From positions 62,001 to 126,000 of the forward strand of contig NZ_JACJPF010000046.1 in the NCBI RefSeq assembly GCF_014695915.1: a stretch of DNA of 64,000 nt, read 5' to 3'. This stretch comes from Trichocoleus sp. FACHB-40. Its GTDB lineage: Bacteria > Cyanobacteriota > Cyanobacteriia > Cyanobacteriales > FACHB-T130. Made by a program: the position numbers and the translations under genes. The notes under the pieces were generated by a model. That model made no database searches. It had not been told where the DNA came from and saw only the letters and a list, made by a program, of their open reading frames with translations. Shown here in pieces: positions 47,360-51,697 of this stretch; the stretch's first letter is position 1; each line of letters opens with the position of its first letter.

Positions 47360-47459
47360 TTAGCCGTGAGAGCGATCGTGCTTTCGGAAATGTCTAACTT
47401 GTGCCTAGGCGAAGGGATATGTGGATGCGATCGCTGTTGTTTAAATCAATGAACCTTGT

Positions 47460-48593
47460 CTAGATAATTTTTTCGATAATCGCTTTCCAAGATGGCAAAT
47501 CCTTTACATCTGTCAATGCTAAATCTTTTAAAGCCATTACTGTTTGCTTTTGATAAGTTCGGAATTTTGACTTAAGGAGTTCTTCCTCCTCAAGCTTTGC
47601 TCCACTTGCAAGTATGGAATTGATAGTAGCTAAGATGGCAACAGTAATACTAACAGCAATACCTGCCGCTGCAATATTAACAACTCCTGTTGGTGGCAAG
47701 AATGATTGAACCCAGATAAAAAGAGATGTTCCAGCTGCTTCAACAGCAACTACCGGAAGTATGGCAAAGGCAGCTTTCGAGGAAAGAACTTCACCAGTGT
47801 AAAGATAGTATAAGGAAACAATTGCGGCAGCTTGTGTAGCTGTCATAAGAGCTGCCCCACCAGGAATAAATGCTTGAACAGCAACTGTAACTAATGCCCC
47901 CACTATGATAGTGGTCGCAGAGGATTTTTTATCATCCATGTGGCGGGCAAGTAGTAGATCCTTTCCCTTTGAAGCTAAAAAATTTTGGAGATCCTCCCGA
48001 AGCCCGGAAACACCACGAATATCTAGTGGAATTTCAGGACGAGTTCCCGGATCGTAGCCGAATGCACACACTGGGTAAATTTTTTCGATCTGAAGTGCCT
48101 GTTTCCACTGATTAATAACCTTTTCTAAAGCTGAGGGATCTAGCCGATCCCACTCGTCGATTTTATTCAGCACTACAAATACAGAATCACAGTGCGATTG
48201 AAGGTCATCTAAGTATCTTTTCTGAGAGGCATCTGAAGCACCAGTTACAACGAGTATGCCTACATCAATATGTTTTAAAAATTCTCGTGTAATCTCACTA
48301 TTCTCTGCACGGACATCATCAAGTCCTGGTGAATCTATTAATCTAACTCGTTCATCTAGCCGCAACACTTTTAGTTTAGTAGTTACACCAGCTTCAGCAC
48401 CCACATTGGCTATAGCCTTTTTACGACTTCACTTTAGCAGTGCATTGATTAATGAGCTTTTGCCGGAACTAACCTTACCGATGACAGCTATATTCAAAGT
48501 TTTAGAGAAATCTTGGACTTTCTCTTCAAACTGAGTTTCTACATTTTCCCAAAAATCTCTCTCATTCCAGCTATCAGATGCTGCGTTGACCAT
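47460..48593 (-). pseudogene. Membrane GTPase gene interrupted by an in-frame TGA
   Basis: Read from ATG 48593 there are 378 codons with one stop, TGA at 48429-48431 (codon 55). The frame is otherwise continuous: a P-loop IGKVSSGKSSLIN at codons 38-50, then the TGA, DSPG at 87-90 and NKID at 143-146, followed by hydrophobic helices (about 215-335) and a basic C-terminal helix. The G domain is of the Era/dynamin-like type with a membrane segment. The remaining open frame from GTG 48404 lacks the P-loop and should not bind GTP normally. A C-to-T change of an Arg CGA codon would explain the stop. Confidence 0.8.
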
Positions 48594-48871
48594 TTGAAAT
48601 TCTCTGGATAACTATAGCTATTATGTAATTGGTATAAATTTAAAATAATCAGTAATTATACTGAAATTACCCAAGCTGAGTGGATGCGATCGCTCTCGTA
48701 CCCCGAAACTCACAGAAACGCAATCGCTTAAACTTGTAGCCTGGTTCTTTTTTTATAACTATTTATACTGTTTACTGCTTGCATCCTTAGCAGCTTCATA
48801 TCATCTATTCTTTTTATTAGTATATTTACTTGAAATACAGGTTGCTAGGTTGTTAACCTAAGTACAAATAA

Positions 48872-49675
48872 CTAATAATTTTTTATAAATAATTCCTTTC
48901 CTTTAGCTGCAAAATCTTTTTTGTAATTATTCATTCCATACTGTAACTCCCAATCCGTTATTTTAGCAAAGCTGAATAGATCCCTGATTTTTGGCGAGTC
49001 ATCGTATGTAATTAACCACCTGTGGTTGCATTTTTGCAAATTAGCTGCAAATCGTTCGTGATCGAATGAAGTATGTAAGTCTCCTTTCACTCCATATAAC
49101 TTCGATTTTGTGGCTTTCCAGTATGGGGGATCGAAAAATAAAAAGACATTTCCTCCATCTTCAAACAACAATTTTTCATAATCCCCATGCGTTACCTTAA
49201 CTTCTGATAAATGGGGAGAAATTTGTCTCAGTCTTTCAATAGAAGATTCAGTAAACCGCTGTTCAAAAGCTTTTTGAGAATAGCCTCCTGAGTCAACTAC
49301 TCCAGAAAAAGTGATACGATTCATAATGAAAAAGCGAACCGCTCTATCAAATTCAGTGTAAACATTGGTTTGATCTGTAAAATAAGCGTATAAATCTCTA
49401 CCATTCGCATACTTTTGGCGGAACTGCATAATTGCATCTACTAATTCTTCAATTTTGTCTTTAGCATTTTTCCAAAAGCAGTATAAATCATAATTCAAAT
49501 CATTTATCCAGTAACGTATTGGAAAAAGGTGATGCGTTTGCTTAAACCCTAAAAAAACCGAACCACCCCCAACAAATGGTTCTCTAAATTCCTCAATGTC
49601 TAGAGGAATATGATATATTATTTTTTCAAATACCCTAGATTTTCCTCCAGGGTATCTTAGAGGACTTTTTTCCAT
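48872..49675 (-). CDS. Orphan DNA adenine methylase (Dam-like, D12 class)
   Basis: From ATG 49675 this is a 267-residue N6-adenine methyltransferase of the alpha (D12) class: the target-side N-terminus SPLRYPGGKSRV, the SAM motif REPFVGGGSVF (Phe34-Gly38) and the catalytic motif FFDPPYW with Asp182-Tyr185. The frame is open to 49777, but that extension is encoded by a palindromic repeat. No restriction endonuclease lies beside it. Codon use is AT-rich compared with the housekeeping genes, which suggests transfer. The recognition site cannot be read from the sequence. Confidence 0.88.
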   Translation of the reverse strand: MEKSPLRYPGGKSRVFEKIIYHIPLDIEEFREPFVGGGSVFLGFKQTHHLFPIRYWINDLNYDLYCFWKNAKDKIEELVDAIMQFRQKYANGRDLYAYFTDQTNVYTEFDRAVRFFIMNRITFSGVVDSGGYSQKAFEQRFTESSIERLRQISPHLSEVKVTHGDYEKLLFEDGGNVFLFFDPPYWKATKSKLYGVKGDLHTSFDHERFAANLQKCNHRWLITYDDSPKIRDLFSFAKITDWELQYGMNNYKKDFAAKGKELFIKNY

Positions 49676-50225
49676 ATTACTGGTTCTCAGGTATCGAAAT
49701 ATAGCAATCCTATTCGAGTTGTTATCTAGTCCTTCACATCCCCGACTTCTTAAAGAAGTCGGGGATCTCGTCTTCACGAATTATTTAGAAATGCTAGAGA
49801 TTAAGTATAATTCATATAGGTTTCCATATTTAATCTTTTAATTATTTATACTTGGTTTTATTGAACAATCATCTAATTATGTTAGATTGCTGGCTATGAG
49901 TTTTTTTTAATAATTATTAATTGCACGTAAGTATATGTTGGGAAAATCTCGTTGAAAGTGAAGTTACATGTAAAACTCTCAATTGATAACTAGCAATTTC
50001 CTCTATATTCGTTGTTACATAAACGCATTTTGAAAAAGCAAGATTGTTTTCTGGACAATCCAGCGCGCTCAGTCCAAATATTGATGTCTATTATGACACC
50101 AGTTAAAGTTTCGCCAGCTATTCCCGTCAAGCCAAGACATCTGCTACCTCACAGAGTGATACAAAACATCAAGTTTTTACAACCAAGGAGTCTTCCCCAG
50201 ACCTAAGTGGTACAATCAACAACCA
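49676..50225. other. Spacer upstream of thiC and the methylase
   Basis: About 550 bp between divergent genes. It holds the palindrome at 49738-49766, a very AT-rich stretch near 49850-49990 and the thiC promoter region. A 64-codon plus-strand ORF (50012-50206) shows no motif. Confidence 0.5.
49738..49766. repeat. REP-like palindrome upstream of the methylase
   Basis: ATCCCCGACTTCTT is perfectly inverted as AAGAAGTCGGGGAT with a one-base centre. This ATCCCCGACTTCTT palindrome is a common dispersed repeat of filamentous cyanobacteria. It lies 63 bases before the chosen methylase start and is read through by the longer frame. Confidence 0.85.
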
Positions 50226-50226
50226 T

Positions 50227-51697
<1,471 letters not shown>

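Follow-up and report, generated by a model that had tools for sequence, protein, structure and literature searches.

A small GTPase gene upstream of thiC in Trichocoleus sp. FACHB-40, located within the 64,000-nucleotide stretch of DNA analysed herein (the window), is interrupted by a single in-frame TGA, and we consider it quite probable that this is a mobile accessory membrane GTPase gene that was recently inactivated by this one nonsense codon and resides in an exchangeable slot. The gene would specify a small membrane-anchored GTPase composed of an Era/dynamin-like G domain and a hydrophobic helical C-terminus. In the window, translation would halt after 54 residues to give a P-loop fragment, and since this fragment ends before G3, G4, and the membrane part, no working GTPase would be made from it.

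Table 1. Coordinates in the window of the interrupted GTPase gene, its motifs, and the surrounding slot.
Feature	Position	Strand	Basis or remark
Membrane GTPase frame	47460..48593	minus	377 codons plus TAA, interrupted once
In-frame TGA, codon 55	48429..48431	minus	Translation and alignment of relatives
G1/P-loop GKVSSGKS, residues 39-46	48456..48479	minus	5' of the stop
G3 DSPG, residues 87-90	48324..48335	minus	3' of the stop
G4 NKID, residues 143-146	48156..48167	minus	Motif position in the read-through frame
Hydrophobic C-terminal region, residues 225-322, probable membrane segments	47628..47921	minus	Kyte-Doolittle windows; helices in a low-confidence model
Possible restart frame from GTG 48404	47460..48404	minus	314 aa, without the P-loop
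Segment replaced in G100 by a DUF262 + HEPN pair	47362..48685		Comparison with the same-species genome
Uma2-family gene, left border of the swapped segment	46634..47359	plus	Pfam; common to G100
D12-class (Dam-like) adenine methyltransferase, right of the swapped segment	48872..49777	minus	Pfam, PADLOC
TPP riboswitch of thiC	50221..50317	plus	Rfam RF00059, 70.3 bits
thiC, conserved neighbour marking the slot	50324..51697	plus	Frame and comparison

As summarized in Table 1, translation bore out the first-pass annotation in describing a frame that is open apart from one TGA at codon 55; the frame was correctly delimited there, but the length given, 378 codons, had counted the terminal stop. The G3 and G4 motifs and the membrane region, which the same annotation had regarded as well kept, could all be located, the latter with 19-residue Kyte-Doolittle windows. 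In Pfam, the read-through protein matched MMR_HSR1 (5.9e-15 over residues 34-144) and Dynamin_N (5.2e-13), and the part following the stop still matched Dynamin_N by itself (2e-06). A chance frame was excluded because ten intact relatives align near full length with 61-79% identity. Among the 25 NCBIfam families listed, the generic small_GTP domain model was the sole one passed (42.7 bits against a cut-off of 42.5), and no equivalog reached its own cut-off. Judging from these motifs, the intact protein was most likely a GTP-switched membrane protein, in which the G motifs would bind GTP and the hydrophobic C-terminus would serve as an anchor. Modelling of the read-through protein with AlphaFold2 and three homologues gave a mean pLDDT of 48, too low to judge a helical bundle.

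The read-through frame carries the G1, G3, and G4 motifs expected of a bacterial dynamin-like protein, and shares with the cBDLPs (NosDLP, SynDLP) both a hydrophobic region after the G domain and the extended P-loop, which a cBDLP review gives as GxxxxGKS/T-x-(L/I)NALL (PMC5827413) and which is present here as GKVSSGKSSLINALL. In contrast to the cBDLPs, the frame comprises only 377 residues and matched no MID or GED domain in Pfam; according to the same review, such domains often escape sequence search, and small GTPases were dropped from its list (PMC5827413). The best PDB profile matches differed as well, namely NUG1, a small GTP-binding protein, and Der. Mitofusin-1 and 5owv, the latter listed as a GTP-binding protein and presumably a dynamin-like protein, ranked lower. 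As for the LeoA/LeoBC bacterial dynamins, in PADLOC the read-through protein matched LeoA best (6.7e-17, residues 20-215), but this match was limited to the G domain, the NCBIfam LeoA/HP0731 model for the LeoA subfamily scored 27.9 bits against a cut-off of 325, and no other GTPase gene lies beside it in the window. The MMR_HSR1 domain is a feature of the Era/Der-like TRAFAC GTPases as well, from which the protein differs by its hydrophobic C-terminus and by matching no RNA-binding domain at 0.01.

Arginine, the residue that had been expected at codon 55, was found there in five of the ten aligned relatives, but four others carried Leu and one His, and a stop occurs at this position in none of the relatives that cover it. 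The window copy thus bears the mark of a nonsense pseudogene, namely an in-frame stop not found in intact relatives, and this was the one lesion across the 377 codons. Its dN/dS values (NG86) against the copies L013, L017, and L015 were 0.19-0.24, similar to the 0.19-0.26 among those three, a pairwise measure that is blind to very recent gene loss and that would show the same purifying selection for a functional gene with an assembly error. At columns invariant in the ten relatives, the window copy had 7 private changes and the relatives 1 to 12; within the closest-five set, it had 18 in 229 columns versus 6, 9, 14, and 45 in the others. These counts lie toward the high side but not clearly past the intact range, and decay beyond the stop is therefore not demonstrated.

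The age of the lesion can be bounded from the frame itself. One change separates 115 of its codons from a stop, 3.9% of random substitutions would create stops, and with a transition/transversion weight of 2, approximately 4.4 further stops would be expected per 0.1 substitutions per site under neutrality. Had the frame drifted neutrally over about 0.07 substitutions per site after its inactivation, a further stop would have arisen in 95% of cases, and a greater neutral age of the loss is unlikely. As a scale, dS against the same-species genome G100 over ten neighbouring genes was 0.04-0.18. Because a single lesion is combined with dN/dS values like those of intact relatives, the stop either arose recently, as measured against the divergence of strains, or is an error, and the very recent stop put forward in the first-pass annotation emerged as the best-supported option.

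The GTPase gene was patchily distributed, with matches at E<=1e-40 in 17 of the 388 genomes of the order (own genome included) and in 14 of the 388 genomes of a class sample, four belonging to both samples. No second copy was detected in the own genome (126 contigs, 97.8% complete), in which the next match was 32% identical (E 5.6e-9), nor was any match obtained at E<=1e-40 in the four other genomes of the family (G001-G004). A plasmid collection contained one full-length relative, on a plasmid of Allocoleopsis franciscana PCC 7113, and one further partial match with 32% identity. The nearest relatives, 76-79% identical and intact, were those of the metagenome-assembled genome Nostoc JL33 (L013), Tolypothrix brevis (L015), and genome G382 (L017); the G302 copy (L016) was identical in its residues to L015 over the compared stretch. 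Degraded frames in sister strains, which the first-pass annotation had named as a sign against its reading, were not seen in the single same-species genome, where the gene is absent at the same threshold, but decayed copies occur in more distant genomes: G167 retains only the last ~170 residues along with a small fragment in a different frame, and in G699 both ends are missing and the match opens with a TAG. The copy in G354, cut by a contig end, was left out of the judgement of intact versus decayed. Three relatives (L023, L024, and L025) keep the P-loop with an altered G3 (ESLGF, ESLRF, and ISTRF instead of DSPGL), and are possibly GTPase-deficient family members.

A phage or virus origin of the gene was rejected, as no relative was found in IMG/VR (54 stretches fit a pattern, 0 confirmed) or among 50,697 phage records at 1e-5. 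A conserved partner gene was likewise rejected in a survey of 22 homologue stretches together with the window and G100, since the families recurring outside the thiC neighbourhood, among the matches listed, were of abundant kinds: Uma2 (at least four loci, one being G100, which lacks the GTPase), response regulators (at least five loci), and short-chain dehydrogenases (at least three).

In L013, L015, and G382 (L017, L062), the GTPase gene is also located beside thiC, with at most small frames in between. Its dS to the window copy was 0.66, 0.53, and 0.68, respectively, whereas that of thiC in the same genome pairs reached 1.48, 1.46, and 1.79; pyrE, compared in a single pair, gave 2.5. Between JL33 and T. 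brevis, the corresponding values were 0.55 for the GTPase and 1.26 for thiC. Since its dS is far below that of thiC, movement of the GTPase gene between lineages, with its place next to thiC retained, is probable; differing mutation rates or codon constraints could also lower its dS, and form the weaker alternative. The movement would be a transfer between lineages into the same address, for instance by recombination in conserved flanks, and the contents of the slot are probably exchanged between strains in this manner.

Comparison with the same-species genome delimited such a slot. The DNA of the window and G100 is common up to 47361 (97%) and again from 48686 (96%), and between these points 1.3 kb of the window is replaced in G100 by ~1.9 kb carrying two other genes (L061:5462-7324). 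One encodes a DUF262/GmrSD_N protein matching the PADLOC models NsnA (1.1e-71) and PD-T4-2_A (7.1e-63), and the adjoining one a PF18735 HEPN protein (2e-21). For the anti-phage system PD-T4-2, a review gives the domains DUF262 and PF18735 HEPN (PMC10952713), the two that adjacent genes encode in the G100 slot, so that these form a probable anti-phage gene pair. The HEPN protein of G100 itself matched no PADLOC model at 0.01, and this putative system is absent from the window. This pair in the matching slot lends support to the defence-type context suggested in the first-pass annotation, and the orphan methylase that it placed next to the GTPase proved to be a D12-class adenine methyltransferase (Pfam; PADLOC type II/orphan models), whose real start is likely near 49675, the G100 copy having 267 aa.

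In genome G003, of another genus of the family, the 3' end of the Uma2 gene and ~78 bases beyond it lie close to thiC (L047:1319-1457), with neither the GTPase nor the methyltransferase between this remnant and thiC. The scar suggests a deletion of the slot contents, and since it extends beyond the left end of the segment exchanged in G100, the left junction of the window is probably the older. In genome G004, which shares its genus with G003, the position immediately upstream of thiC is taken by a DUF262 gene. Near both swap borders (47368-47378 and 48686-48697), GAGAGCGATCG and its inverse were observed within palindromes of the abundant cyanobacterial kind HIP1. A role in guiding the exchange is conceivable, and the match may be due to chance. 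A dispersed hairpin repeat (CCCCGACTTCTT...AAGTCGGGG) occupies 49699-49799 of the window (hairpin 49740-49764), overlapping the N-terminal extension of the methyltransferase frame, and dozens of similar copies are present in G100 and the family genomes.

Three other explanations of the in-frame TGA were weighed against a genuine inactivation. A sequencing or assembly error in an intact gene, to which we assign a small though appreciable probability, agrees with the well-kept remainder of the frame and with selection measures equal to those of intact relatives. A lone substitution error in a draft assembly is possible and uncommon. The ten compared neighbouring genes are intact in both the window and G100, giving no regional excess of errors and thus mild evidence for good local sequence. 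Translational restart at GTG 48404, another option of the first-pass annotation, would produce a 314-residue protein with a separate role, for instance in partnership with a different GTPase. The frame is indeed open from this codon, and the altered G3 motifs of L023, L024, and L025 suggest that the family tolerates GTPase-deficient-looking members, but these keep the P-loop, which the restart product would omit and with it the phosphate-binding part of the GTP site; moreover, the frame of no relative begins at this position and the own genome has no second full-length copy to serve as a partner. We regard such a restart as very improbable.

Decoding of the TGA by read-through or recoding to give the full-length protein, likewise raised before, would fit the conserved frame 3' of the TGA. 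Against it, codon 55 varies and no relative covering the column has a stop, so that the TGA is no conserved recoding signal, and neither component of selenoprotein synthesis looked for was found in the genome (97.8% complete): SelA had no match, and the matches to the tRNA-Sec model were all below the cut-off, the best four being ordinary serine tRNAs. The TCA anticodon was absent from 69 tRNA matches, scored from 150 of 336 first-look candidates, a sampling in which a divergent tRNA could be missed; ARAGORN named 64 of them, and the anticodon loops of the other five were read by eye as TGC, TCC, TTC, TGC, and CTT. With no UGA-reading tRNA located, this decoding appears scarcely credible. Apart from this question, the genome carries 28 tRNA genes densely packed into 3.7 kb of a 144-kb contig (G000 contig C6:29877-33549, L086), 25 detected by ARAGORN and three by Rfam only, and many of their anticodons also occur among its dispersed tRNAs.

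Genuine inactivation is accordingly preferred to these alternatives. We infer that the TGA is real in the DNA of the organism and that no GTPase product works here, the GTPase most likely being abolished by the nonsense codon; the event is best read as recent gene loss of an ordinary kind, or else a base error, in an exchangeable slot. As to the role of the intact protein, its patchy and mobile distribution and its alternation with a PD-T4-2-like pair suggest a part in phage conflict, and this context together with the G-domain match to LeoA models makes a defence-type membrane GTPase a tentative reading, for which we hold somewhat less than even expectation.

The specificity of the slot was assessed with 40 stretches upstream and 40 downstream of thiC, in which proteins of at least 100 aa within 2 kb were searched with PADLOC at 1e-20. 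The 40 genomes, taken from the upper part of a thiC ranking of 113, leave out the species of the window and several others, some with short contigs. Proteins matching NsnA/PD-T4-2_A made up 4 of the 79 upstream proteins (25 of 86 PADLOC families listed), these DUF262 genes (G004, G035, G036, and G049) being 43-57% identical to the G100 gene, versus 0 matches to DUF262 models among 100 downstream proteins, one downstream stretch having only 441 bases and giving no protein. Uma2 (Pfam) was found in 6 of the 79 upstream proteins; histidine kinase, CheW, and pseudouridine synthase domains, which have no defence link, also occurred upstream (25 of 59 families listed), and on the downstream side type II methyltransferase models had at least two matching proteins and RmrA had one. 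The DUF262 contrast is suggestive, and no significance is claimed for it because the 40 genomes are related to one another. A wider proposal, which we put forward as speculative and rather doubtful, is that the DNA separating the riboswitch leader of thiC from the gene upstream may be a recurrent site at which small defence modules are exchanged in cyanobacteria, where the GTPase would be a single-gene anti-phage membrane GTPase competing with PD-T4-2-like DUF262 + HEPN pairs and its loss here one step of turnover. Among the literature titles searched, none pointed to thiC as a defence slot; this concerns titles only, and absence from print is not claimed.

The broken gene as such matters little; what deserves further attention is the exchangeable slot. 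Should this reading of the slot be correct, alternative cyanobacterial defence modules could be collected by comparing strains at a defined site upstream of thiC, and the small membrane GTPase family would become a candidate for a defence gene that is testable via its intact homologues.
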